Source: Bacteroidota bacterium (GTDB taxonomy: Bacteria; Bacteroidota; Bacteroidia; Bacteroidales; NBLH01). From it: DNA of 64,000 nt. Within the stretch, counting starts at the first letter, position 1, and each line of letters opens with the position of its first letter. Shown here piece after piece: positions 20,858-63,444 of the stretch. Location of the stretch: assembly GCA_025361565.1 (NCBI GenBank), contig JANYKN010000116.1, positions 472,470-536,469 of the forward strand, given 5' to 3'. Position numbers and translations under genes: made by a program. Below the pieces are notes generated by a model that did no database searches, was not told where the DNA came from, and worked only from the letters and a program-made list of their open reading frames with translations.

Positions 20858-21388
20858 ATGAAAAAGCTTCGATTAATAGCAAGAGTTTTACGAAATATAT
20901 TTACCATTTCTTTTTTTAAGCAAGCGTTCGATTTTATTGCAGAACTTTCGCTGGAAAATGCTTATGCATTGAGAGTAATGAGCAGAGGGAAAAATACCCC
21001 AATTAGCTCTTCTGCAAGATTTAATCATCCGAACAATATTACAATTGGAGACCGGACAAACATCAATAGAAATTGTATGATTTGGGCTGGAGACACAGCT
21101 AAAGTGGTTATTGGAAAAGATTGCCTTACTGGGCCGGGAGTAACAATTATTGCATCCAGGTATGATGTAAGAGGACATAACATTATCCGCTCCTATCCAC
21201 CTTACGAAAGGGATATAATTATCGGGGATGACGTATGGCTTGGTGCCAATGTAGTAATTTTACCAGGCGTTAAAATAGGAAATGGTGCCATTGTCGGAGC
21301 TGGCTCTGTGGTTACAAAAGATATTGAATCATATACTGTTGTTGCTGGTGTTCCAGCAGTAATGTTAAAAAGAAGACAAAATGATTGA
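20858..21388 (+). CDS. Hexapeptide-repeat acyltransferase (WbbJ/LacA type), copy A
   Basis: A 176-residue left-handed beta-helix acyltransferase. The repeats run from about residue 55 to 165 (ITIGDRTNINRNCMIWAG, VVIGKDCLTGPGVTII, IIIGDDVWLGANVVILPG) and end with the standard VAGVPA. The catalytic histidine is probably in VRGHNIIRSYPP. The first 45 residues, including AFDFIAELSLENAYALRVM, form an extra helical lead. The protein is about three quarters identical to the one at 36626-37165, which marks this as a duplicated cassette. Likely an O-acetyltransferase for the polysaccharide. Its last eight bases overlap the next gene. Confidence 0.87.
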   Translation: MKKLRLIARVLRNIFTISFFKQAFDFIAELSLENAYALRVMSRGKNTPISSSARFNHPNNITIGDRTNINRNCMIWAGDTAKVVIGKDCLTGPGVTIIASRYDVRGHNIIRSYPPYERDIIIGDDVWLGANVVILPGVKIGNGAIVGAGSVVTKDIESYTVVAGVPAVMLKRRQND

Positions 21389-23198
21389 TTTTTTTGCTGA
21401 AATTCACTTTACATCAAATGAAGTTTTAATTACCAACGATTTTTTTGATAAACAAAATGTTTATTCGGAATTGACGTATTTTAATTTTCAAACTGAATTC
21501 AATAACTGTAAATTTGTTTGGACAAAGCGATTTGAGGAAATTGATTCTTATTTTGAGAACAACCAATATTTAACTCTAATTTATGGTTATTGTTTCACCA
21601 GACTCGATTCCAATTTAAAAATTGGGAAGAAGAGACTTACAGCAAATGATTTAGGTACGCTTTATGATGAATATAAAGAAAGAATCACGGATCATATCAA
21701 AGGCTCTTATTCAATGCTTATCTTTGATAAAGAAAAAAACGAAGTTCGATTATTTACTGATAAGTTTAATATTAAAAATATATATTATTCGTTCAATGGC
21801 AGCCGATTACTAATTTCCACATCATTAGGAGCTTTTTCTCAATATTCCAAAGAAGAATTCAGTAAAGTGAATGTTAAATCTATTTTGGAATATTATCTAT
21901 TTGATTTTGACCTAGTCGATGAATCTTTTATTGAAAATATCTATTCTTTGCCCTCAGCTAGTTGTTTAACAGTATCCCTAAATAAAATAGAAAAAAAAAC
22001 CTATTGGGATATATTCAATGCTTTTGCTGATTCAAAACCTGAATTAGATGAGGACGAAGGAATTGCAAAGGTAGAAGATTTACTAAAGAAAAACCTGGAT
22101 CTATACCTTAATCACCCGCAAAAAACAGCGTTTGCCTTAACTGGCGGATACGATTCAAGAACAAATTTGGCATTATTGGATGGGAAAGCAGATAAATGTT
22201 TCTTTTATTCCTATGGATTACCAGAAAGCTATGATGTTAAATTATCGCAAAGAATTGCAAGGGAGCTGGGATTAAATTTCAAAGCTTTTCATATGGATGA
22301 TAACTTTGCTGAAAATTTTGATAAAAATGCAGAAATAGCCATTCGATTAGGCGATGGCATAAGTGAAATGAATCGCGCCAATTATGTTTATGTATATAAA
22401 AACTTCTTTACCAAATTCGATCATATATTAACCGGATTATTTGGCAGTGAATTAATTAAACGGCCAACCAGCCTTGGTGGTTACATTGATGTTCATGTAA
22501 GAGATTTGCTATTATCAAATAACCTCGAAGAATGTTTTGAAAAAATAATCCTTAAAGCAAAATCAGAAAACTATTTTAAACCAGAAATTATTGATCAATA
22601 TAAAGATCAAATATTGAATGATATCGTAAAAAATCCATATCTTAATAATAAATTCAACGGTGCCCTAAAGTTTTTCTTTTTTATTACCGGAATTGGCAAT
22701 TGTAAATATTTTATGAAGGAAATTAAAACAGAAAGGCCTTTTGTTGAAAACCTTCACCCCTATCTCGATATTGAGTTTGTTGAGTTGTTAATGAAAACTC
22801 CATTTCCATGGGTATATAATTGGGAAGAAAAAAAGAGTTTGCTGGAGAATTTAAAAATCCACAAATTCTATGGCTCACTAATCTACAGAAATAATAAAAA
22901 ACTTGCTGATATTATTACAACACATGCCTATAAACCAAAATATCTGTTGAAAAAGATTTGGTTGCCTTTTTTAATAGCTCAATACTTATACTTCAAAAAA
23001 AGAATCAGCAAGATAGGTATTTTCAGAAACGAAGGATTGATTTATGAATTCTATACAAAAAGAAAGAAAATATTTGAACGATACACATCTGTTTTTAACC
23101 AAAAAGAAATTGAACACGAGTATCTTAAGCATATGAAAGATTTTACCAAACTCAGTTCTCTTCAAATTTGGATGCATGAAAATGATTTGAAGCTTTGA
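21381..23198 (+). CDS. Asparagine synthase-like protein lacking the N-terminal cysteine
   Basis: A 605-residue protein with the two-domain layout of AsnB. The N-terminal glutaminase-like fold is recognisable (TDKFNIKNIYYSFNG, where AsnB has DRFGIKPLYY). The synthetase domain has the ATP pyrophosphatase loop FALTGGYDSRTN in place of SGGLDS. The protein begins MIDFFAEI, so the Cys2 nucleophile needed to release ammonia from glutamine is absent. It may use free ammonia or another amine, or catalyse a different adenylation-based ligation. Its gene starts inside the end of the acyltransferase gene. Two complete AsnB genes (32008 and 37158) lie elsewhere in the island. Confidence 0.8.
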   Translation: MIDFFAEIHFTSNEVLITNDFFDKQNVYSELTYFNFQTEFNNCKFVWTKRFEEIDSYFENNQYLTLIYGYCFTRLDSNLKIGKKRLTANDLGTLYDEYKERITDHIKGSYSMLIFDKEKNEVRLFTDKFNIKNIYYSFNGSRLLISTSLGAFSQYSKEEFSKVNVKSILEYYLFDFDLVDESFIENIYSLPSASCLTVSLNKIEKKTYWDIFNAFADSKPELDEDEGIAKVEDLLKKNLDLYLNHPQKTAFALTGGYDSRTNLALLDGKADKCFFYSYGLPESYDVKLSQRIARELGLNFKAFHMDDNFAENFDKNAEIAIRLGDGISEMNRANYVYVYKNFFTKFDHILTGLFGSELIKRPTSLGGYIDVHVRDLLLSNNLEECFEKIILKAKSENYFKPEIIDQYKDQILNDIVKNPYLNNKFNGALKFFFFITGIGNCKYFMKEIKTERPFVENLHPYLDIEFVELLMKTPFPWVYNWEEKKSLLENLKIHKFYGSLIYRNNKKLADIITTHAYKPKYLLKKIWLPFLIAQYLYFKKRISKIGIFRNEGLIYEFYTKRKKIFERYTSVFNQKEIEHEYLKHMKDFTKLSSLQIWMHENDLKL

Positions 23199-29202: not shown

Positions 29203-30265
29203 TGATATCAGAAATTATTTTTTCTATCGCTTTTAACATGGTATTCGATACATCATTTCCAAATACATCTGATTGAACATTGGTTGGCATAAAATCCAAT
29301 ACTTTTCTAAAAGCATTTTCAAGGGTTGGATCAACTAATATATTCCAGCCATCTCTAATAGTTTCAGTCCATTCAGTCTCTGTTCTAAATGTAATACAAG
29401 GTTTTTTTAAAAAATATGCTTCTTTTTGAATGCCTCCTGAGTCTGTAAGAATCTTTTCAGCATAATATTCAAGTTTCAAAAAATCGAAATACGGTTTGGG
29501 TTCTGTTACTATAATATTCTTTCCTATATCGATTTTGTTATCCCTAATAATCTTTTGAGTTCTGGGGTGTACCGGAAAAACCACATTTTTTTCAAGTTTT
29601 TGAAGATTATTCAATATTTTCGATAAGTTTTTAGGGTCATCCACATTATAAGGCCTGTGCAATGTCAATAAAAAATATGGATCTCCATTTATATTTAGTT
29701 TATCTAAAACAGTTGATTTTTCAAGTGCAACAGGCAAATTATTTTCAAGTGTATCCTTCATGATATCACCTGTGAACCAAGTTTTTTTTGCTAGTCCTTC
29801 ATACTCCAAGTTTTTTACTGCACTTCGAGTTGGTGCAAACAAATAATCAGAAATATGGTCCGTAGCAATCCTATTTATCTCTTCAGGCATTTTTCTGTTA
29901 TAACTTCTTAAGCCTGCCTCAATATGAATTACGGGAATATGTAATTTTGTTGCAGTCAAAGAGCCCGCTACTGTTGAATTTGTATCTCCAAAAACTATTA
30001 CCAGTGACGGTTTTTCGGCAACGAAAACTTTCTCTAATTCAATAAGCATTTTACCGGTCTGCTCTCCATGGCTGCCAGAACCAATTCCAAGATTATAATC
30101 CGGCTGAGCAATTTGCAACTCCTTAAATATCATATCAGACATCGCATCATCATAATGCTGGCCGGTATGGATAATAATCTCTTTAAAATTTTTTCTTATT
30201 AATTTAGAGAGTGGAGCCAATTTGATAAATTGTGGTCTGGCTCCAACTATAGATAAAATTTTCAT
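29192..30265 (-). CDS. wecB: UDP-N-acetylglucosamine 2-epimerase (non-hydrolysing)
   Basis: A 357-residue GT-B-fold epimerase that interconverts UDP-GlcNAc and UDP-ManNAc. Family motifs are all present: GARPQFIKLAPL, IHTGQHYDDAMSD, GDTNSTVAGSL, HIEAGLRSYNRKMPEEINR and TDSGGIQKEAY. The length is normal. The neighbouring gene, overlapping by four bases, is a UDP-sugar 6-dehydrogenase, so the pair should make UDP-ManNAcA, as wecB-wecC do in enterobacterial common antigen. The assignment is strong. Confidence 0.94.
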   Translation of the reverse strand: MKILSIVGARPQFIKLAPLSKLIRKNFKEIIIHTGQHYDDAMSDMIFKELQIAQPDYNLGIGSGSHGEQTGKMLIELEKVFVAEKPSLVIVFGDTNSTVAGSLTATKLHIPVIHIEAGLRSYNRKMPEEINRIATDHISDYLFAPTRSAVKNLEYEGLAKKTWFTGDIMKDTLENNLPVALEKSTVLDKLNINGDPYFLLTLHRPYNVDDPKNLSKILNNLQKLEKNVVFPVHPRTQKIIRDNKIDIGKNIIVTEPKPYFDFLKLEYYAEKILTDSGGIQKEAYFLKKPCITFRTETEWTETIRDGWNILVDPTLENAFRKVLDFMPTNVQSDVFGNDVSNTMLKAIEKIISDINDK

Positions 30266-31983
30266 AAAGCCTTCTTTTTTTGTGCTTCAAATGCATTTTT
30301 CACTAATAGAAATGTATGGTCATTATAGATTGGAACCGTATTAATTTCGCCTATTTCAGCAATAATACATCCTGTTGAACAACTTGCTGCCAGTTTTTGA
30401 ACTGTTTGAAAACTAATTTTATTGAATTCATTTTCAGCATACTTTTCATTTAAAAAAGAACAAATTTCATAAACTTCATTTGCTATTCCTATTTCCATTA
30501 TTTTAAATGATTTTTCAATAAAATCAACAAATTCCTTTTCCGGTTTTTGCGTTCCTCTACCGATTCCACAATAGGCGATGCCAATATTATGGAATTGTTC
30601 TGTCGTGTAAATATTACACCCATCTAAAACCCCCATAATATCAATCGAATTATTAAAAATATTGTCAAAATAATCTAAATAAATTTTATGAGCCGTTCCT
30701 ATAATAATATAGCTTGAACCTCTTACTGATTTTTCAATATCATTGGAAAAAATTGATTTAACGTTGTATTTAAGCAAATTTTGATCGTCATTTTTAACAT
30801 AAGGATCATGAAGTATTACTAATGCACCTTTTTTCTGAAGTTCGATTGCCAACTGAATTGAAGGAGAATTTCGGGTATCTTCGGAATTAAAACGATAGGC
30901 TGTACCAAGTATTGTGATTTTTTTTCCCTCAACTGAACCAAAATTTTTCTCAAAAAGTTTGATGGTTTCCAACGGAGATTTATCATTTATTTTTCTGGAA
31001 TTAATAATCAAACTTGATGAAGTATCGGCTCCATTTTTAATCATTCTCCACCACAACAGAATTCCATCTTTTGGCAAACAGTGCCCACCAACACCAATGG
31101 TTGGAATTAACAAACCACCACTAGGCACCACAGTGGCATCTTTCGAAGCATCATCAGCCTGAGAAATCCTTGTATTTACCTCATCTCTAAGCGCATAAAA
31201 ATCAATATTTTGTTCATCACAGTATCTTACTACCTCGGCAGAAAAAGCAATCCGCACATCTCTATATGCATTTTCTAATGTTTTAACAACTTCCGCAGTT
31301 AAACTATTAGTCATGTGCAAAATTCCGTTTGTGACAATATTGCTGTATAATTTTCGAATCATTATAGGTGTAACAGGATGTAAGCCAGCCACGAGTTTGT
31401 CACTATGGGTTACTCTTTCTACTAGTCTTCCAGGCATTACCCGATTAGGACTGTTACCCAATAATATATCTTTACCTTCAATCAATCCATATTTTTCGAA
31501 ATGTTGCTTTATGATTGTCATCATGGTTGATGGTGCCAATGTAGATTCGAAAATAACCAAAGGTATTTTATTTTCAGGTTTATTTTGAAGTGCTTCTGCC
31601 AAACTGGATAATCCTCCAAGCAGTGGCCCATAATCGGGTTCCAGGCCATCTTTGTCTGTTTGAATGGAAATCAGAATTACATCTGCGTCTGAAAGAACAT
31701 TAAAATCCCAACTTGCGGATAATCGAACATCTTTTACATTTTGTTCAACTATTGAGTTCAGCGCTGGTTCTATTCCTCCAATGACCGATTTTCCATCGTT
31801 GATAGCTTTTACTTTCCATCCTGAATTTCCTGAATTTCTCTGCACTACCACAACTATTGCTGGCTTATCGGTACCAATTTTTATTTCTGCATCCGCCAAA
31901 AGCGCAGCCATTGGCATTCCTACAATCCCTGGACCTATTACGCCGATTTTTTCAACTTTCCAGTTTTTAAAATATTCTTCCAT
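30262..31983 (-). CDS. wecC: UDP-N-acetyl-D-mannosaminuronate-type dehydrogenase with C-terminal extension
   Basis: A nucleotide-sugar 6-dehydrogenase with an N-terminal Rossmann domain (GVIGPGIVGMPMA), the catalytic cysteine C302 in GVGGHCLPKD, and the C-terminal UDP-binding domain (ITILGTAYRFNSEDTRNSP). Next to the UDP-GlcNAc 2-epimerase gene it is expected to oxidise UDP-ManNAc to UDP-ManNAcA. Most such enzymes have about 420-440 residues; this one has 573. About 110 residues after the third domain (roughly 465-573) include a helical EVYEICSFLNEKYAEN and a cysteine-containing CSTGCIIAEIGEI that I cannot assign. The domain near residue 40 also has a short insertion (QRNSGNSGW). Whether the tail is regulatory or catalytic is unknown. 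Confidence 0.85.
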   Translation of the reverse strand: MEEYFKNWKVEKIGVIGPGIVGMPMAALLADAEIKIGTDKPAIVVVVQRNSGNSGWKVKAINDGKSVIGGIEPALNSIVEQNVKDVRLSASWDFNVLSDADVILISIQTDKDGLEPDYGPLLGGLSSLAEALQNKPENKIPLVIFESTLAPSTMMTIIKQHFEKYGLIEGKDILLGNSPNRVMPGRLVERVTHSDKLVAGLHPVTPIMIRKLYSNIVTNGILHMTNSLTAEVVKTLENAYRDVRIAFSAEVVRYCDEQNIDFYALRDEVNTRISQADDASKDATVVPSGGLLIPTIGVGGHCLPKDGILLWWRMIKNGADTSSSLIINSRKINDKSPLETIKLFEKNFGSVEGKKITILGTAYRFNSEDTRNSPSIQLAIELQKKGALVILHDPYVKNDDQNLLKYNVKSIFSNDIEKSVRGSSYIIIGTAHKIYLDYFDNIFNNSIDIMGVLDGCNIYTTEQFHNIGIAYCGIGRGTQKPEKEFVDFIEKSFKIMEIGIANEVYEICSFLNEKYAENEFNKISFQTVQKLAASCSTGCIIAEIGEINTVPIYNDHTFLLVKNAFEAQKKKAL

Positions 31984-35590: not shown

Positions 35591-36622
35591 ATGGAATTTT
35601 TACAGATTGAAAAAATAAGAAGTACACAATTTCCGCTAAAATCGCTCATTGGAAAGCTTAGTTTTGAATTGGGAAGAAATCCAAAAATTGAAAAAAAAGC
35701 AAATTATCAGGATTATATTCCAAAACCTTATAAGTCGGTATTGATTATTTCGGCAGATTTTGAGTTGGCATGGGCATTCCGGTTTTCAAAATCCCAGAAA
35801 AATCCGGTTGAAAATGCACTCGAACATGGCAGATTAACAAGAAAAAATGTTCCGGAAATTGTTAAACTATGCGAAAAACACAATATCCCAATCACATGGG
35901 CTACTGTTGGCCATCTCTTTTTGGAATCATGTTCAAAAGAAAATGGTCATGCACATTCTGATTTAAAAAAACTGGATCATTTTGAAAGTCCTTTCTGGAA
36001 ATTTGATAACGGTGATTGGTTTAAGGACGATCCTTGTACCGATTATAAAACAGATCCAGAATGGTATGCCCCTGATTTAATAAAATTAATTACAGAGTCA
36101 TCAGTAAACCATGAAATTGGAAGTCATACATTTTCTCATATTGATTGCAGGGAATCTGTTTGTACTCCTGATATATTTAGTTCGGAATTAAAAAAATGTG
36201 TAGAAGTGGCTAATGATTATGACATTCAATTAAAATCATTTGTGTATCCGGGACATACATTTGGCAATTTTAATTTATTGCCAGAATTCGGATTTACTTC
36301 ATTCAGAACTAATTACCTGAATATTTTAGGCTATCCAATAAAAAAATCGAATAAGTTGTGGGAGCATCAAAGTACTGCTGAATTTGACATAAGGCACTCC
36401 TGGTCAATAAAATACCAAATTTACCGATATAAAAAGATAATTGACAAGGCCATTAAAAATAATACAAATTGTCATTTTTGGTTTCACCCTTCATTTCAGC
36501 ACCAGTTTGTAACAGATGTTATGCCTGCAGTGTTTGAATATATTGATGAAATGAGAAAGGAAATTTTTATAACAACTATGGGTGAATACACCCAATGGTT
36601 AAACGAAAACATGAGTAAATAG
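35591..36622 (+). CDS. Polysaccharide deacetylase-family protein
   Basis: A 343-residue NodB-fold protein. Motif 1 is SADFELAWAF (D56-F-E58), so the second aspartate of the usual DD or DxD is replaced by glutamate. The His pair is in HEIGSHTFSH, and KSFVYPGHTFGNF resembles motif 3. WFHPSFQHQF near the C-terminus could supply a further histidine. Without a signal peptide it likely acts on a cytoplasmic intermediate. It is the middle gene of the cassette whose other copy is reduced to about 100 bases at 20675. Deacetylation of a sugar before the downstream acyltransferase acts would be a sensible pairing, but that is inference. Confidence 0.84.
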   Translation: MEFLQIEKIRSTQFPLKSLIGKLSFELGRNPKIEKKANYQDYIPKPYKSVLIISADFELAWAFRFSKSQKNPVENALEHGRLTRKNVPEIVKLCEKHNIPITWATVGHLFLESCSKENGHAHSDLKKLDHFESPFWKFDNGDWFKDDPCTDYKTDPEWYAPDLIKLITESSVNHEIGSHTFSHIDCRESVCTPDIFSSELKKCVEVANDYDIQLKSFVYPGHTFGNFNLLPEFGFTSFRTNYLNILGYPIKKSNKLWEHQSTAEFDIRHSWSIKYQIYRYKKIIDKAIKNNTNCHFWFHPSFQHQFVTDVMPAVFEYIDEMRKEIFITTMGEYTQWLNENMSK

Positions 36623-40178: not shown

Positions 40179-40585
40179 CCAACAAATATTAAAATAATTT
40201 CCACTTTTCTATAAACTCAACTTATTTATTGTCAACATTTCTTTTATAGAAATTTAATAAACTATGCAGTTCAGCTAAAATAAAAACAAAATTCAATTTT
40301 AAGATGGAGAATTTTATTAAAAAGAGGAAATTTTGACTCAAATTCAATATTACCTGACCATATACTCTAATTTCAATTTAAATGAAAAGAACTTTAATAT
40401 TGTTTTGCCTTATTTAAGATAATACCTGAATAATTTTATAGCGAGAAATAAAAGACAAGTTCACATCAGTTTTTTTCATCTTAGCCAAGAATGAATAGAA
40501 TTTGGTCAAAAATTCTTATATCAAGCTAAAAGAATTAAAATGGTTATATAATTAAGTGTTATTTTCGAGCAAATTTCATACTAAA
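40179..40585. other. Divergent intergenic region, about 400 bases
   Basis: An AT-rich gap between the minus-strand glycosyltransferase and the plus-strand five-gene operon. It presumably contains promoters for both, but I find no exact TAnnTTTG element, hairpin or repeat. An in-frame GTG at 40556 would extend the next protein by ten residues; this is unlikely to be the start. Confidence 0.4.
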
Positions 40586-41350
40586 ATGGAGCGCGATTTT
40601 ACACTCACAACATATTCATATTTATTGGAGCATTTATCAAAAGCTGGTTATTTGTTTCAAACTTTTGAAGAATTCACCTTGAATCCAGGAAATGACAAAA
40701 TTGCAATTCTTCGCCATGATGTTGACCGTGCACCTGAAAACAGCGTAAAAATGGCCAAATTGGAAAATAGCATGAACATTAAGGCTAGCTATTATTTTAG
40801 GATAGTTTCCGAAAGCTATGATGAAAATTGCATTGAATCAATAGTTAAGCTAAATCATGAACTTGGATATCATTATGAGGATTTGGCATTATCAAATGGA
40901 ATAGAAGAACAGGCATTTGAGAATTTTAAAAAAAATCTTCAAAATTTAAGGCGATTTTATCCAATAAAAACCATGTGCATGCATGGAAGTCCGACTTCGA
41001 AATGGGATAACCGACTTTTATGGAACACTTATAAATATAAAGATTTTGGAATTATTGCTGAACCTTATTTCGATATAGACTTTAATCAGGTTTTCTATAT
41101 TACCGATGCTAGCAGAAGCTGGAATAACCAAGAGGTTACGCTTAGAGACAAAGTTAAATCGGATTTTGATATTGATATTAATTCTAGTTCCGATATTATT
41201 AACTTGATAAATAATCAAAAACTTCCTAACAAAGTGATGATAAGCACACATCCCCATAACTGGGCTGCCAGCAATATGGAATGGGCAAAAATCCTTATAT
41301 GGCAAGGCATGAAAAATCAAATAAAAAGAATATTAGTACGTAAAGCATGA
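40586..41350 (+). CDS. NodB-fold deacetylase-like protein (HDVD type)
   Basis: A 254-residue protein with a polysaccharide-deacetylase fold. AILRHDVDRAPEN (HDVD at 44-47) is motif 1. HELGYHYEDL replaces the usual His-x3-His by Y-H-Y-E, and a late STHPHNW gives a further histidine pair. MCMHGSPTSKWDN lies between. The start is ATG 40586; a GTG at 40556 is in frame but precedes no conserved residues. It heads a compact plus-strand operon and overlaps the ATP-grasp gene by four bases. Proteins of this type occur in glycan clusters, but the substrate is unknown and hydrolase activity is not assured. Confidence 0.75.
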   Translation: MERDFTLTTYSYLLEHLSKAGYLFQTFEEFTLNPGNDKIAILRHDVDRAPENSVKMAKLENSMNIKASYYFRIVSESYDENCIESIVKLNHELGYHYEDLALSNGIEEQAFENFKKNLQNLRRFYPIKTMCMHGSPTSKWDNRLLWNTYKYKDFGIIAEPYFDIDFNQVFYITDASRSWNNQEVTLRDKVKSDFDIDINSSSDIINLINNQKLPNKVMISTHPHNWAASNMEWAKILIWQGMKNQIKRILVRKA

Positions 41351-42501
41351 TAGAACGAATTGTAATATTAGGCAATCACATTCAAGGTCTTGGAATTTCA
41401 AGAATTACTAACAGATTGGGATATGAAGTAATTTTATATAATCAATCTTCGTTAAGTGTAGCAAGGTTTTCGAACACATGCGGTAAGTTTATAAAATTTA
41501 AAGATTTAACCCATCTGTTAAAGTTACTAATGGAAAGCGAGTTAAATGGAAAGAAAACCTTGATTTTTCCTACAAATGATTTAATGGTAGGGTTTCTATC
41601 TGATAATTATGATGAGTTGTCGACTAAATATATTTTATCTATTTCTGAAAAGAAAATTACAGATATTGCATTTAACAAACGAAAGACTTATGAATCAGCT
41701 AAAAATGCAGGATTACCGATACCTGAGAGTTTTTATCCTAACACACTAGAAGAATTGAATCTAATTGAAAGTAAACTGGTATATCCGGTTATTTTAAAAC
41801 CTGCAGTGATGTATCATTTTTATAAAAAGGCCGGGAAAAAAGTTTTTCTATGCAAATCAAAAGATGAGCTCGTTGCCAATTACGAAAAAGCAGTACAAAT
41901 CATTCCAAAAAATGAAGTGATAATTCAGGAAATGCTTACTGGTGGGGCTGCTAAGTTATTTTCATTTGCATCATATGCAAAGTGTGGAAGTGTTAAAGGA
42001 AGTTTCATTGCAAATAGGATTAGACAAAAACCAATGGATTTTGGAGTTGCTACTACCTTTGCCAAAACAGTAATTTCGGAGGAAATTGAAACTTCAGCAA
42101 AAATTTTCTTGAAATCTATAAATTACACTGGAGTTTCGGAAGTAGAATTTATGTTTGATGATAAAACAAAAAAATACAAATTAATTGAAATCAATCCACG
42201 TACATGGAAATGGCATACCATGTCGAATGCAGTCGGCATCAATTTGATTAAAATGCTTATAGACGATTTTGATGGAAAGGAAATTATAGAACAAAAAAAT
42301 ACAATCGAAAATATTGGGTGGATTGAGCAGCTGACCGATTCATTTATCATGATTTCAGAAATACTCAAAGGACGGTTGCGCTTTAAAGATTATTTAAAAT
42401 CCTTGAAAATACATAAGGAATATGCTACATGGGATAAAAAAGATCCGCTACCTGCAATTATGTATATAATTTTATCACCCTATTTCTATTTTATGAGGTA
42501 A
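41347..42501 (+). CDS. ATP-grasp ligase (carbamoyl-phosphate synthase-like fold)
   Basis: A 384-residue ATP-grasp protein. An N-terminal Rossmann-like domain (IVILGNHIQGLGISRI) is followed by the ATP-binding core: FNKRKTYESAKNAGLPIPES, YPVILKPAV with the ATP-contacting lysine, VIIQEMLTG, and the metal-binding EVEFMFDD and LIEINPRTWKWH. Such enzymes activate a carboxylate as acyl phosphate and join it to an amine or other nucleophile. Overlap with the deacetylase-like gene and closeness to a pyruvoyl-decarboxylase-like gene suggest a modification pathway in which an amino acid or acid is attached to a sugar or lipid. The substrates are not known. Confidence 0.8.
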   Translation: MIERIVILGNHIQGLGISRITNRLGYEVILYNQSSLSVARFSNTCGKFIKFKDLTHLLKLLMESELNGKKTLIFPTNDLMVGFLSDNYDELSTKYILSISEKKITDIAFNKRKTYESAKNAGLPIPESFYPNTLEELNLIESKLVYPVILKPAVMYHFYKKAGKKVFLCKSKDELVANYEKAVQIIPKNEVIIQEMLTGGAAKLFSFASYAKCGSVKGSFIANRIRQKPMDFGVATTFAKTVISEEIETSAKIFLKSINYTGVSEVEFMFDDKTKKYKLIEINPRTWKWHTMSNAVGINLIKMLIDDFDGKEIIEQKNTIENIGWIEQLTDSFIMISEILKGRLRFKDYLKSLKIHKEYATWDKKDPLPAIMYIILSPYFYFMR

Positions 42502-42529
42502 TTAATATTTAATATAATAAACCATTCAT

Positions 42530-43336
42530 ATGTTTGCATTTTTATTATTTATCGAGTCGCTAATAATCAGCACATTGATGTTCCTTTATCTTAATTATAA
42601 AGCTAAAGTTGAGCTCAAATATCTTTTTCTTGACAATATTTTAATTTCTGTTGTTTCAACAATCATTACCTATTTGTTTTACACCTCATATCTTGAGAAT
42701 CCTATTTATTCATATATTGTTAATATTGCAATGGTTCCTACTGTTTTGGTTCTAAATACTTTAGTACGATTTTACAGAGTTCCAAACCGCAAAACAAAAG
42801 CTGGAGATAAAGATATTATTTCACCTGCAGATGGGAATATCATCTATATCAAATTAATTGAAGCCAATGATATACCTTTTTCAATTAAAAATTACGAGAT
42901 TTCAAAACTTTCTGAGCTTGTTAATACAGATATTTTAAAAACTCCTTGCTGGCTCATAGGCATCAATATGACTCCTTTTGATGTTCATAAAAATGCATCA
43001 CCAATTGGCGGAAAAGTAATATTAAACAAACATTTTAATGGCAAATTTTTATCCCTTAAAGATGGCCAGGCTGAACTTGAAAATGAACGGAATACCATTG
43101 TAATTGATAATGGCGAATTTCAGGTTGGCGTAGTACAAATTGCTTCAAAAAAAGTAAGGCGAATCGAAACTTATTTTAAAGAAGGTGAAACTATAAAACG
43201 TGGGAATTGGTTTGGCATGATAAAGTTTGGTTCTCAGGTAGATGTTATTATTCCTGCCACCTACCAGGTTGAACTTAATTTAAAAGATCAGGTCTATGCA
43301 GGAAGAACAATCATAGCTAAACCAAAACAATCATAA
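42530..43336 (+). CDS. Phosphatidylserine decarboxylase-like protein (pyruvoyl proenzyme)
   Basis: A 268-residue protein. Residues 1-85 are hydrophobic with two or three membrane spans. Residues 90-268 match the short-type phosphatidylserine decarboxylase: DIISPADGNIIYI, MTPFDVHKNASPIGG with the catalytic histidine, and the self-cleavage site FGSQVDVIIP (Gly234-Ser235), where Ser235 would become the pyruvoyl group. Bona fide short Psd enzymes often read FGSRVD. In this glycan operon the substrate may be phosphatidylserine or a serine-containing conjugate. Placement 28 bases after the ATP-grasp gene argues for a shared pathway. Confidence 0.82.
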   Translation: MFAFLLFIESLIISTLMFLYLNYKAKVELKYLFLDNILISVVSTIITYLFYTSYLENPIYSYIVNIAMVPTVLVLNTLVRFYRVPNRKTKAGDKDIISPADGNIIYIKLIEANDIPFSIKNYEISKLSELVNTDILKTPCWLIGINMTPFDVHKNASPIGGKVILNKHFNGKFLSLKDGQAELENERNTIVIDNGEFQVGVVQIASKKVRRIETYFKEGETIKRGNWFGMIKFGSQVDVIIPATYQVELNLKDQVYAGRTIIAKPKQS

Positions 43337-43350
43337 ATTAATTAAACCAT

Positions 43351-44196
43351 ATGCTTAAAGTTGCCTTAAGTCACGATGTTGATCGGATAAAAAAGCATTA
43401 TCAATACATCACCAATTCATTTAAATCATTATCTAAAGGTAATCTTAAAAATGCACTCTACCACTATTTGTCATGCTTTGGGCCAGAACCTTATTGGAAT
43501 TTTCCAGAAATAATAAAAATAGAAGAAAGTTATGGAGTACGTTCAACTTTTTTTATGTTGGATGAAACAATTCCATTTAAGCTTTTTGACCGAAAAAACT
43601 GGCAGCTTTCTGTTGGAAGGTATAAAATTTCAAATAAGAAACTAAATGAAACCGTTCAGTTCTTAGATAAAAATGGTTGGGAAATTGGAGTGCATGGCTC
43701 ATACCTTTCATACAACAATGAAAGCCTTTTAAAAAAGGAAAAAGAAAATATCGAAAATATTGTAGGTCATAAAATTATCGGTAGTCGTCAACATTATTTA
43801 AATTGGGATGAAACTACATGGAAAATCCAAAAATCACTTGGATTCAAGTATGATTCAACTTGGGGATTGACCAATGATATAGGGTTTAAAGAAAACAAAA
43901 TATTACCATTTAAACCTAACAATGACTATTTTATAGAAATACCATTAATTGCAATGGATATTCCTTTCATGTCAATAAAAAACAGATGGGAAAGATTGAA
44001 AACCCTTATGGATACCCTGGAAGAAAAAAATGGTATTTTCGTAATAAACTGGCATCAGCGAGTTTATAATGAAAACGAATTCCCTGGTTATAACAGTGCT
44101 TATCATCGCATTATTCAAGAGTGTAAAGCTAGAAATGCTCAATTTTTAACTATGTCTGAAATCTACAATGATTTAGAAAAAAACTGGATTTTATGA
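43351..44196 (+). CDS. Polysaccharide deacetylase-family protein (HDVD type)
   Basis: A 281-residue NodB-fold protein beginning almost directly with motif 1: VALSHDVDRIKKHY (H8-D-V-D11). The region EIGVHGSYLSYNN corresponds to the metal-binding histidine motif, SRQHYLNWDETTW to motif 3, and INWHQRVYNENEFPGY is a C-terminal histidine segment typical of this subfamily. No signal peptide. It is the second deacetylase-fold protein of the operon, 14 bases after the decarboxylase-like gene, and overlaps the DUF354 gene by four bases. Possibly removes an acyl group from a sugar intermediate. Confidence 0.82.
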   Translation: MLKVALSHDVDRIKKHYQYITNSFKSLSKGNLKNALYHYLSCFGPEPYWNFPEIIKIEESYGVRSTFFMLDETIPFKLFDRKNWQLSVGRYKISNKKLNETVQFLDKNGWEIGVHGSYLSYNNESLLKKEKENIENIVGHKIIGSRQHYLNWDETTWKIQKSLGFKYDSTWGLTNDIGFKENKILPFKPNNDYFIEIPLIAMDIPFMSIKNRWERLKTLMDTLEEKNGIFVINWHQRVYNENEFPGYNSAYHRIIQECKARNAQFLTMSEIYNDLEKNWIL

Positions 44197-45269
44197 AGAT
44201 TATCATTGACGTAAACCATCCCGGACATGTCCATTTATTTAAGAACTTTGCAAAAATGGGAGAAATTGAAGGCTGGAAAATCCTGTTTACTGCCAAAGAC
44301 AAAGAAGTCACATTGGATTTATTAAAAGCGTACAAACTAGAATATAAATGCCTTGGTAAACACTACAGCGGAAAACTCGGAAAAATACTAAGCTTGCTCA
44401 ATCATACCTTCAGACTTTTTTGGACAGCCATTTTTTTCAGAACTGATATTTTCCTGAGCCATGGTTCGGTTTCCGCTTCATGGGTTTCATTTCTTTTACG
44501 CCGAAAATATATTGCCTTTGAAGATACCGGAAACATGGAACAAATAAGACTTTACAAACCATTTGCCCATGCTATACTAACCACAGAATCCTTTAAACAG
44601 GATTATGGTAAAGTTCAAATAAGATATAAAGGATTTCATGAAATTGCATATCTTCATCCAAATTATTTTAATCCGGACAACGAAATTTTGAAACAGCTAG
44701 GCATAATCAAAAATGAAAAATACTTCATAGTAAGATTTATCTCTTGGGGAGCCAGCCACGATGGAAGCGAAAAAGGCCCTTCTGAAACAGAAAAGGAAAA
44801 ATTAATTGACCTTTTGGCAGCACATGGAAAAGTTTTCATTACTTCAGAAGCTCCACTATCAGAAAACTTAAAAAAATATAAAATTCAGATTCCTCCAGAA
44901 AAAATCCACGATGCTCTGGCATTTGCCTATCTGTTTATTGGTGAAGGTTTAACAATGGCATCGGAATGCGCTATGCTTGGTACCCCTGCAATACTTATCA
45001 ACACTATGAAAGCTGCAACTATTGATGAACAACAGGAGTATGGTTTATTATTTCATTTAACCAAATATGAACAGATCTGTGATAAAATTAATGAATTATT
45101 GAAAGAGGAAAATCTAAAACAAAAATGGCAGGAAAAGAGAATTAAATTACTAAACGATAAAATAGATGTAAGTGCATTTACTTTTTGGTTTGTAAAAAAC
45201 TTTCCAGGAAGCTTTAATTCATTGAAGAAAAACCCTAAAATACAGAATGATTTTAATACAAAAATTTAG
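44193..45269 (+). CDS. DUF354 family protein (GT-B-like)
   Basis: A 358-residue protein of the DUF354 group, which resembles UDP-GlcNAc epimerases and GT-B glycosyltransferases. It opens with IIIDVNHPGHVHLFKNFAK, has FLSHGSVSASWVSFLLRR and IAFEDTGNMEQ in the first domain, and in the second SWGASHDGSEKGPSE and LFIGEGLTMASECAMLGTPA, the sugar-nucleotide-type site. Members are found in archaeal and bacterial polysaccharide loci, but their reaction is not established. It is the last gene of the operon; a convergent gene follows after 45 bases. Probably a glycosyltransferase or nucleotide-sugar enzyme. Confidence 0.82.
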   Translation: MKIIIDVNHPGHVHLFKNFAKMGEIEGWKILFTAKDKEVTLDLLKAYKLEYKCLGKHYSGKLGKILSLLNHTFRLFWTAIFFRTDIFLSHGSVSASWVSFLLRRKYIAFEDTGNMEQIRLYKPFAHAILTTESFKQDYGKVQIRYKGFHEIAYLHPNYFNPDNEILKQLGIIKNEKYFIVRFISWGASHDGSEKGPSETEKEKLIDLLAAHGKVFITSEAPLSENLKKYKIQIPPEKIHDALAFAYLFIGEGLTMASECAMLGTPAILINTMKAATIDEQQEYGLLFHLTKYEQICDKINELLKEENLKQKWQEKRIKLLNDKIDVSAFTFWFVKNFPGSFNSLKKNPKIQNDFNTKI

Positions 45270-61318: not shown

Positions 61319-62374
61319 ATGATTAAAATGAAAAATTATATAAATAATATAAAGCCAATTCAAATTTATTTTGTATTGGTTCTGTTTATGGTTAGTTCAT
61401 GTAAATCAGAGAAAAAAGATATTCCATATCCATATACCGAAGGTACGGCAAGGATAGCCAAGTGGAAAGATGATAAAAAAGCAGTTGTAACCCTGGAATT
61501 TGACGACAGCACACCGGGGCAGGCAACTTTAGGCGTACCAGCTTTGAACGCTAGAAAGATGGTAGGCACATGGTATGTAAACCCAGGACGGGATGAATAT
61601 ATTTCCAACATAAATATTTGGGAAAATATTGCCCCAGCAGGTGGACAAGAATTGGCAAACCATACTATGACCCACACTGGAGCCACCACAATGGATCAAG
61701 TTGTTTATGAAGTTGGTGAGGCTTCGAAAAGAATCTGGCAAATCAGGGGACAAGCAATTTATGGATCTTTGATTGCTTTTAACCGCGGAGGTGGAACCAC
61801 TTGGAACGAAGCAGATCTGGCAAAGGTACTTAGTGATTATGACAATATCGACAGGCAAGCATATATTGGAGTTCCAGTTTCGGCTTTAACAGTTGTGGCT
61901 GGTTCGGATGCAAATGCCATGTATGTTTATATACCAAATGCAATTGCAGATTCCACTATTGCACGTATTCATTTTCACGGAATTAGCGCAATAAATGCCA
62001 ATCCACCAATGGATTCAGGCAATGCAGCAGTTTGGATTAATGAGTTTAATGCTTTTCTGGACAAATTGGATAATATCAAATCTGAGATCTGGATTGCCGG
62101 GTTTATTCAGTTGTATAAATACATAAAGGAACAGCAAACAGCAACTCTTACAATTGCCCAATTTAGTGAAGAGCTTTTTAAAATTACTCTTCAATCAAGT
62201 ATGGATACAAAATATTATGACGAACCACTAACCATTGTAGCATATTTACCTGTCAGTTGGACTAATTGCCTGGTTTCGTACGATGGAACCGAAAAAACAA
62301 TACCTGTAAACAATGGGGTTGCCATGTTTGATGCACGACCAAATAAAGGTGATATTTCTCTTTTAAAAAAATGA
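61319..62374 (+). CDS. Secreted deacetylase-like lipoprotein, tandem copy 1
   Basis: A 351-residue lipoprotein, lipobox VSSC (Cys28), with a NodB-like fold. LEFDDSTPGQATLGV (D62, D63) resembles motif 1, and ELANHTMTHTG (H115 and H119) fits the His-x3-His metal site. IARIHFHGIS gives a further histidine pair. The last 90 residues form a separate beta-rich domain (YDEPLTIVAYLPVSW, GVAMFDARPNKGDISLLKK). An alternative ATG at 61328 would shorten the signal by three residues. It probably removes acetyl or other groups from an exported or environmental polysaccharide. The next gene is its paralogue, 56 bases on. Confidence 0.82.
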   Translation: MIKMKNYINNIKPIQIYFVLVLFMVSSCKSEKKDIPYPYTEGTARIAKWKDDKKAVVTLEFDDSTPGQATLGVPALNARKMVGTWYVNPGRDEYISNINIWENIAPAGGQELANHTMTHTGATTMDQVVYEVGEASKRIWQIRGQAIYGSLIAFNRGGGTTWNEADLAKVLSDYDNIDRQAYIGVPVSALTVVAGSDANAMYVYIPNAIADSTIARIHFHGISAINANPPMDSGNAAVWINEFNAFLDKLDNIKSEIWIAGFIQLYKYIKEQQTATLTIAQFSEELFKITLQSSMDTKYYDEPLTIVAYLPVSWTNCLVSYDGTEKTIPVNNGVAMFDARPNKGDISLLKK

Positions 62375-62430: not shown

Positions 62431-63444
62431 ATGAAAAATTTAGCAATATGGTTTTTGATACTATTCTCATTTTCATTAAAAGGCAAGACAATTCAAAATG
62501 CTGATTATGAACCAAATGTTATAATTGCAAAATGGAAAGGAAATAAAAAAGCCGCATTAAACCTGCAATTTGATGATAGCACTCCTGGGCAGGCAACTCT
62601 TGGTATACATGCTTTAAACAAAAGAAATATCATAGGAACATGGTATGTTAACCCGGGGCGAGAAGAATTTAATAAATATTTACACTTTTGGGAAGATACT
62701 GCAACTGCTGGCGGTCAAGAGTTGGCCAACCACACTATGACTCATTCGGGAGCTAGCAACCACAAACAAATAGAATACGAAGTTGGCGAAGCTTCAAGGA
62801 TAATTTGGCACATTAGGAAGCAAAAGGAATTTGAATCACTTATTGCTTTTTGCACTGGTGGAGGCACTTCGTGGGATCAGGAGGACTTAAAACAAGTGTT
62901 AACCCAATTTCATAATATTGATAGAATTTCAAATGCAGGAGTAAAAGTTGATGCTAAAACGATTCTTCCCGGTTCAAGTTCGGATGATATGTACGAAACA
63001 ATTCCAAAAATAATCCAGGATGGAATTTGGGGCCGATTACATTTTCATGGAATTACAAACATTAAGGGTAATCCACCAAAGGACTTTGGAAATGGCGCAG
63101 TAATGATTGATGAGTTTGAGAAATTTTTAGACAAACTATTACAGGATACTGACAAGCTGTGGATCGCAGGTTACATCCAGGTATACAAATACATCAAGGA
63201 AAGAGAAACTGCTGAAATTTCAATGATACAAATTGATGATCGGATCTTTCAAATTAATCTCAAATCAAATATGGATGGTAAATATTACGATGAACCTTTA
63301 ACTGTTTTGGCAAATGTTCCTATAAGCTGGAATAATTGCATCATTTCAATTAATGACAAAAAAAAATCAATAAAAATTGTAAATGGTATTGCTATGTTTG
63401 ATTTATTGCCCAACCCAGGAGATGTTTTGCTAATAAAAAAATGA
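62431..63444 (+). CDS. Secreted deacetylase-like protein, tandem copy 2
   Basis: A 337-residue paralogue of the previous protein, with the same motifs: LQFDDSTPGQATLGI (D48, D49), ELANHTMTHSG (H101, H105), RLHFHGIT and the C-terminal YDEPLTVLANVPISW. It has a cleavable-type signal peptide (NLAIWFLILFSFSLKGK) without a lipobox cysteine, so it would be soluble in the periplasm or outside, while copy 1 is lipid-anchored. The pair arose by tandem duplication and may act on the same polymer in two locations. Confidence 0.82.
   Translation: MKNLAIWFLILFSFSLKGKTIQNADYEPNVIIAKWKGNKKAALNLQFDDSTPGQATLGIHALNKRNIIGTWYVNPGREEFNKYLHFWEDTATAGGQELANHTMTHSGASNHKQIEYEVGEASRIIWHIRKQKEFESLIAFCTGGGTSWDQEDLKQVLTQFHNIDRISNAGVKVDAKTILPGSSSDDMYETIPKIIQDGIWGRLHFHGITNIKGNPPKDFGNGAVMIDEFEKFLDKLLQDTDKLWIAGYIQVYKYIKERETAEISMIQIDDRIFQINLKSNMDGKYYDEPLTVLANVPISWNNCIISINDKKKSIKIVNGIAMFDLLPNPGDVLLIKK

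Follow-up and report, generated by a model that had tools for sequence, protein, structure and literature searches.

The window, that is the whole stretch of 64,000 nucleotides analysed here (Bacteroidota bacterium, assembly GCA_025361565.1, contig JANYKN010000116.1, positions 472,470 to 536,469), carries at 40586-45269 a module of five open reading frames (ORFs) on the + strand. Their successive gaps are -4, 28, 14 and -4 bases, and these coordinates agree with an initial annotation that had described five closely spaced, co-directional genes. The core of the module consists of an ATP-grasp ligase and a protein resembling phosphatidylserine decarboxylase (Psd), which, judging from the genomes compared below, very probably work as a functional pair in glycan modification. 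The five genes are the following.

40586..41350, + strand: gene 1, member of a CE4/NodB-like family with conserved HDVD and HEIGYHYE motifs, without a Pfam/NCBIfam deacetylase match
41347..42501, + strand: gene 2, ATP-grasp ligase, core of the module, above the Pfam cut-off and with an ATP-grasp fold in its model
42530..43336, + strand: gene 3, Psd-like pyruvoyl decarboxylase (PF02666) with three N-terminal membrane segments, core of the module
43351..44196, + strand: gene 4, NodB/CE4-type deacetylase (PF01522), distant relative of VimE
44193..45269, + strand: gene 5, DUF354 (PF04007), GT-B-like putative glycosyltransferase

For gene 1, the mechanical ORF begins with a GTG at 40556; we chose the ATG at 40586, which matches the start of two relatives.

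We firstly looked at conservation from the side of Psd. A scan of 84,980 species genomes was reduced to the best 80 of 357 stretches, weaker relatives thus lying outside this view, and the 80 loci were split into 52 module loci and 28 comparison loci. Five further loci (L033, L035, L041, L042 and L044) were judged to share contigs with L070, L092, L046, L064 and L074, respectively, and stand outside the counts. Below, "directly" means within 400 bases between mechanical ORF ends, and in the module loci ATP-grasp matches of less than 100 bits in proteins longer than 200 amino acids were ignored. In such conditions, an ATP-grasp gene was present on 50 of the 52 module loci and lay directly 5' of Psd in 47 of them; in the others it stands directly 3' (L077), is separated from Psd by DUF354 (L070) or lies 5.6 kb away (L092). 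The two loci where it is missing, L069 and L097, are on contigs that start at the Psd gene. A full-length ATP-grasp protein of the module type was found in 0/28 comparison loci, L100 having a partial match (50 bits, at the contig end). The protein distances of ATP-grasp and Psd are also correlated (Spearman 0.51 over 48 loci), the best of six gene pairs, the others giving 0.10-0.26. The conserved co-occurrence of ATP-grasp and Psd-like proteins in polysaccharide clusters, for which the initial annotation had called, is therefore borne out in several phyla, and the combination occurs across many genomes rather than in one strain.

The other genes of the module are less constant. DUF354 is present in 41/52 module loci (33 of which have it directly 3' of Psd), the gene-1 family in 32/52 and the gene-4 family on 6/52. 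The exact five-gene order was observed in close relatives only, namely L046 (= G426), L047 and L045, the contigs of the last two beginning in or after gene 1. Gene 4 was thus observed inside the module in close relatives only, and the idea of the five genes as one fixed unit does not hold. The widespread unit is the ATP-grasp–Psd pair, mostly with DUF354 and often with gene 1. Relatives of pssA, searched with phmmer and the genome's own pssA protein as query, were found in 0/52 module loci versus 15/28 comparison loci, and pssA was rejected as a partner of the module. Taken together, these comparisons show a pair, with a membrane-anchored Psd-family member that is distinct from the housekeeping Psd, which is conserved inside glycan clusters and is accompanied in Bacteroidota mostly by DUF354 and a deacetylase-like gene.

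According to their record labels, the carriers belong mainly to Bacteroidota, and also to Ignavibacteriota, Cloacimonadota, Calditrichota, Verrucomicrobiota, Planctomycetota and Fischeribacteriota. Outside Bacteroidota, the pair occurs without DUF354 or gene 1 in L079, L086-L090, L092 and L108. The module copies of L068 (a Methanomicrobiales metagenome-assembled genome, MAG) and L083 (a Chloroflexi MAG) stand near those of Bacteroidota in the trees, so that misbinned contigs seem likelier than a transfer; we are unsure about L079 (an Actinomycetota MAG), and no phylum was counted on the strength of these three labels. Two other families were observed near the pair. A second, different ATP-grasp-like family of about 345-355 amino acids lies upstream of the module (L034:3324-4391, L154:5931-6965 and L033:17850-18890); a cluster of such appearance is present in 7/55 loci, the assignment relying on weak ATP-grasp matches for L034 and L154 and made by eye for L033. 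A gene for a B12-binding radical S-adenosylmethionine protein is found near the pair outside Bacteroidota (L086:11913-13373, L089:11487-12950, L108:11637-13124 and L035:14574-16034), with a cluster in 5/55 loci; the domains were seen in L108, and L035 was assigned by eye.

Samples taken from the side of the ATP-grasp family are free of any choice based on Psd. In the phylum sample (296 genomes), six ATP-grasp family matches exceed 400 bits, the next one being at 239, and four of these six carriers have the Psd family, for which the scores show a gap between 146 and 99 bits. One of them, G070, has its ATP-grasp and Psd genes 5.6 kb apart, and neither DUF354 nor gene 1 was found there within the 20 kb read. 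The order sample (149 genomes) contains the ATP-grasp family in seven genomes and the Psd family in five, all five being among the seven. The chance of such an overlap is 21/571,880,029, about 4e-8, a value that ignores kinship, two of the five sharing a genus; this nesting indicates an association beyond chance. The ATP-grasp family was found in 4/245 genomes of the class of G184, none of them new, and in 1/345 genomes of the window's own class, which is the window's genome itself; the Psd family was found in 2/80 genomes of the family of G184, again none new.

Over all samples there are 12 different ATP-grasp family carriers, of which 8 have the Psd family. The four Psd-less carriers (G066, G123, G446 and G450) retain ATP-grasp, DUF354 and gene 1 as a group, and they need four separate changes on the ATP-grasp tree, in which Psd-bearing rows are over-represented since most were found through Psd. 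In three of the Psd-less loci, L144, L145 and L154, DUF354 comes directly after ATP-grasp with no substitute between them. In every untruncated module locus Psd is accompanied by ATP-grasp, whereas 4/12 ATP-grasp carriers do without Psd. Like other accessory glycan genes, those of the module are rare and have a patchy distribution.

We then compared gene 3 with housekeeping Psd proteins. It matches PF02666 with 139.6 bits (cut-off 22), and D101, H153 and S235 are kept in 50/50 module Psds and in 27/27 housekeeping Psds. The residue after the pyruvoyl serine is Gln in 50/50 module Psds versus Arg in 27/27 housekeeping ones. In addition, all module Psds have Tyr106, Lys120, Gly144, Leu176 and Val209, which the housekeeping copies lack or rarely have. 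Lys120 lies inside an insert of 20 columns relative to the housekeeping Psd of the same genome; in the profile alignment, this stretch and its Lys are matched to a segment of E. coli PSD, so that having the insert does not by itself distinguish the module. The sequence contains three N-terminal hydrophobic segments, and the structural model (predicted local distance difference test, pLDDT, of 89.7) comprises a PSD-type domain and three helices, 2-25, 30-55 and 58-82, resembling membrane segments. In a tree, the module Psds form one side of a branch with support 94/71. This side has 50 rows, that is 47 loci plus the window, L034 and L043; L069, L085, L093, L096 and L097 are absent, being too short, broken or not included. 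L108, which has 28% identity, was assigned to the module group and is placed there by the tree too.

Gene 3 falls below every listed NCBIfam cut-off for PSD or archaetidylserine decarboxylase, with at best 172.8 bits versus 183 for NF003685, and 168.2 versus 230 for TIGR00164. The housekeeping copy passes NF003678 (278.9, cut-off 225). This second Psd is encoded elsewhere in the genome, where it adjoins a cdsA-type gene and lies about 1.6 kb from a pssA-type gene, and gene 3 is thus not the sole Psd of the genome, a case that had been considered initially. Two or more Psd genes were found in 28 of the 31 Psd-bearing carrier genomes searched, and a single one in the three others (G983, G989 and G991). 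The module Psd probably does not act on bulk phosphatidylserine. A change of substrate is plausible, since enzymes of the Psd fold with other substrates exist, such as PsiD and a fungal arginine decarboxylase.

Gene 2 scores above the cut-off with PF02786 (46.1 bits, cut-off 19.8) and PF02655 (32.2 bits, cut-off 23.2). Its predicted structure has a pLDDT of 93.9, and in a structure search ATP-grasp chains fill the list, the best with Z 28.0. The closest structures are biotin carboxylases, PurK, PylC and amino acid ligases, with 12-19% identity, and the substrate of gene 2 cannot be read from these nearest solved enzymes. E281, N283 and R285, which form a Glu-x-Asn-x-Arg motif at the metal/ATP site, are invariant in 38 sequences of the family. 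Among the NCBIfam equivalog matches listed (25 of 32), none passed its cut-off, the best reaching 47.7 bits for a cut-off of 218.

The initial annotation had assigned deacetylase folds to two proteins. For gene 4 this agrees with a Polysacc_deac_1 match (PF01522) of 26.7 bits (cut-off 23.1); the protein remains below the VimE model NF053580, with 50.5 bits for a cut-off of 440. Gene 1, in contrast, was not matched by any Pfam or NCBIfam deacetylase model, and likewise three of its relatives had no Pfam match and one had no NCBIfam match, yet hhalign relates it distantly to gene 4 (E 2.8e-6, probability 88). It also weakly matches the peptidoglycan N-acetylglucosamine (GlcNAc) deacetylase 2c1g (full-sequence E 0.0011, best-stretch E 0.018). 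In the alignment of its family (n=24), H96 and H222 are invariant and H44, D45, D47 and H91 nearly so; HDVD, HEIGYH and H222 are conserved and are candidate metal-site positions. Gene 1 thus represents a conserved family, present in the window and in 32 module loci, which the deacetylase models of Pfam and NCBIfam leave unmatched. Gene 5 matches DUF354 with 75.6 bits (cut-off 22) and more weakly Glycos_transf_1 and MurG; its sequence match in the PDB is weak only.

The module lies in a large polysaccharide island that encodes aminotransferases, a flippase, glycosyltransferases, a UDP-GlcNAc 2-epimerase, AsnB-type proteins and export/chain-length proteins, and a nucleotide-sugar dehydrogenase is encoded at 30262-31983 of the window. 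More NodB-type deacetylases are present in the same island, at 35591-36622, 61319-62374 and 62431-63444. An AsnB-like protein, at 21381-23198, has relatives in module loci (for example L049:4889-6712), with weakened matches to the glutaminase/synthase models; such clusters recur near the module, one in 13/55 loci and another in 9/55, and these proteins are possibly further amide-forming enzymes.

What could the pair do? In pyruvoyl decarboxylases, the substrate is bound as a Schiff base through its alpha-amine and loses its carboxylate; because both groups must be free for this, an amino acid linked by its own alpha-amine or carboxyl is no substrate. It was initially proposed that an amino acid such as serine is attached and then decarboxylated. 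The comparative evidence speaks for ligase and decarboxylase as linked steps, and the pyruvoyl mechanism speaks against an amino acid joined by its backbone; serine linked in this way, which is one way to understand that proposal, was therefore rejected. If the ligase acts first, attachment by the side chain is needed; otherwise decarboxylation must precede ligation. A ligase acting first could couple Asp or Glu to an amino sugar through the omega-carboxyl, or a diamino acid to a uronic acid through the side-chain amine, and the Asp/Glu route is the simplest, because the deacetylase-like partners could expose the amino sugar. The one-way dependence between the genes, Psd being present without ATP-grasp in none of the untruncated module loci and the reverse occurring, is expected if Psd uses the product of ATP-grasp, and favours ligation first. 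We give this order an even chance; the naming of Asp and Glu as substrates of the ligase is doubtful.

As a whole, we tentatively favour a module that would tailor a surface polysaccharide as follows. In a lipid-linked intermediate, the deacetylase-like protein(s) would free the amine of an N-acetylated sugar, to which the ATP-grasp enzyme would then join an amino acid by its side chain, in the simplest case through the omega-carboxyl of Asp or Glu, and the alpha-amino acid part would stay free. The Psd-like enzyme would form a Schiff base with that alpha-amine and remove the carboxyl, to leave a group of the beta-alanyl or 4-aminobutyryl type with a free primary amine, and DUF354 would add the next sugar. 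Psd would be an optional tailoring step that can be lost. In a more general form, it is possible, if somewhat speculative, that a clade of the Psd family and a dedicated ATP-grasp enzyme were recruited in several phyla to a membrane-bound glycan, where side-chain ligation and alpha-decarboxylation would create a free primary amine.

Several points weigh against this tailoring scheme. The argument on the substrate is drawn from sequence alone. The split into 52 and 28 loci was made after the loci had been viewed, and was then checked by the Psd tree, whose support for the separation of module and comparison proteins (94/71) is moderate. The patterns of the genome-collection scan contained GSQ, and Gln236 is thus partly ascertained in those loci; it is also present in seven members outside the window from the phylum and order samples, found without any pattern. 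Gene 1 is missing from 20/52 loci and DUF354 from 11/52, some contigs ending nearby, and the loci outside Bacteroidota that have the pair alone imply that the steps of the deacetylase and the transferase do not take place in every carrier. Finally, in L155 (G450) a gene for a DegT-type pyridoxal phosphate (PLP) enzyme occupies the position between ATP-grasp and DUF354 where Psd normally lies, and favours a supply of the amine before ligation.

This last point belongs to the strongest alternative, which we consider rather unlikely: the Psd-like protein would convert a serine derivative, resembling phosphoserine or phosphatidylserine, into an amine of the ethanolamine type, and the ATP-grasp enzyme would use this amine to amidate the carboxylate of a uronic acid. 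The capsule of Campylobacter jejuni HS:2 offers a precedent, with Cj1436 (a decarboxylase) or Cj1437 leading to ethanolamine phosphate or serinol phosphate and the ATP-using ligase domain Cj1438C amidating glucuronic acid (PMC12409886). The nucleotide-sugar dehydrogenase of the window would also fit such a pathway. A cluster resembling nucleotide-sugar dehydrogenases (by eye) is however present in only 5/55 loci, three of the Psd-less loci have no substitute in the Psd place, unlike L155, and the three membrane segments of the Psd-like protein are easier to reconcile with a lipid-linked substrate than with one in solution. Ligation first is thus ahead of amine supply, though not far ahead.

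The membrane segments would also suit a role in lipid anchoring, in which the Psd-like protein makes a special pool or variant of phosphatidylethanolamine, whose amine is then coupled by the ATP-grasp enzyme to a glycan with carboxylate groups, so that the polysaccharide becomes lipid-anchored. In haloarchaea, the ArtA-dependent anchoring of proteins to lipid involves contributions of HvPssA and HvPssD (PMC7157517). We find this explanation improbable, given the lack of pssA in all 52 module loci, the other Psd already present in 28/31 genomes and the Gln, not Arg, beside the pyruvoyl serine.

Still less probable is a linking sugar for C-terminal protein sorting by the type IX secretion system (T9SS) or exosortase, for which the module would make an amine-bearing acceptor, in the manner of the Vim/Wbp proteins of Porphyromonas. 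Gene 4 is a distant VimE relative, with a score far under the cut-off, and according to a proposal for the Wbp/Vim pathway (PMC7468200), VimE deacetylates a sugar and VimA adds Ser or Gly, which gives the sugar that carries T9SS cargo. We searched for T9SS sorting domains at E <= 1e-3 in the carriers and at E <= 1e-6 in the phylum sample, and compared the counts over the family cut-off. Thirty of the 35 carrier genomes are over this cut-off (four of them Psd-less), and three of the five others have strong exosortase matches; G989 has neither, and G986 weak matches only (T9SS below the cut-off, exosortase 30.5 bits). Nevertheless, at least 229 of the 296 phylum-sample genomes have T9SS tails, so there is no enrichment; T9SS is common and the module is rare. 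That all six ATP-grasp carriers of the phylum sample have tails is unsurprising, and protein sorting was dropped as the main explanation. The weakest alternative, a redundant phosphatidylserine decarboxylase merely located in a polysaccharide cluster, agrees with the kept catalytic residues and the Pfam family match, and is made most improbable by the fact that, in several phyla, the module Psds are almost always coupled to one and the same ATP-grasp family, by the absence of pssA from 52/52 module loci and by the separate group of these Psds in the tree.

The favoured scheme, ligation followed by decarboxylation, shares features with known systems. In butirosin biosynthesis, BtrJ and BtrK serve the aminohydroxybutyrate side chain: an ATP-grasp enzyme ligates an amino acid, which is decarboxylated once attached to give an aminobutyryl group on a sugar-containing compound. 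The order of steps is that of our proposal; the butirosin decarboxylase is however PLP-dependent, its substrate is bound to a carrier protein and the pathway makes an antibiotic. With the PSD family (PF02666), the module Psd shares the fold of the soluble domain (E. coli PSD 7cnz: Z 12.8, root-mean-square deviation 2.7, 153 aligned), the Asp/His/Ser residues and the membrane anchoring, but it differs by its own tree group, the Gln after the serine, the 20-column insert, the three membrane segments and the lack of a nearby pssA. PsiD (acting on Trp) and the arginine decarboxylase of Aspergillus oryzae illustrate, by their PDB titles, a Psd fold that acts on amino acids instead of phosphatidylserine; their substrates are nevertheless free amino acids, and we know of no ATP-grasp partner for either. 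Gene 2 resembles PylC, the L-amino acid ligases and PurK by its fold and its Glu-x-Asn-x-Arg site, and is distinguished by 12-19% identity, by scores under the listed equivalog cut-offs and by a decarboxylase partner in a glycan cluster.

In C. jejuni, a decarboxylase (or Cj1437) and an ATP-using amide ligase are likewise found together in a capsule cluster, whereas that decarboxylase acts on a serine-phosphate and the amine is made before ligation. The Wbp/Vim pathway shares sugar deacetylation followed by addition of an amino acid; its VimA is in contrast a putative N-acetyltransferase, and the main text mentions neither ATP-grasp nor decarboxylation. PMC12419801 describes an unrelated operon with ATP-grasp and PssA. 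A combination of ATP-grasp and Psd-like proteins was not described in any of the papers listed by literature searches (titles and starts of abstracts, most subscription papers being outside its scope), in line with the initial statement that no such pathway was known.

The module is real, conserved and, as far as our searches show, undescribed. If the proposed scheme is true, it would represent a new step of surface-glycan biosynthesis, ligation then decarboxylation, and a textbook family of phospholipid enzymes would have been repurposed in bacteria; the annotation of the module genes as phosphatidylserine decarboxylase would then be misleading. Free amines in a capsule affect charge, adhesion and recognition, and could be attachment points. 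The ATP-grasp/Psd pair provides a genomic signature that can be tested directly.

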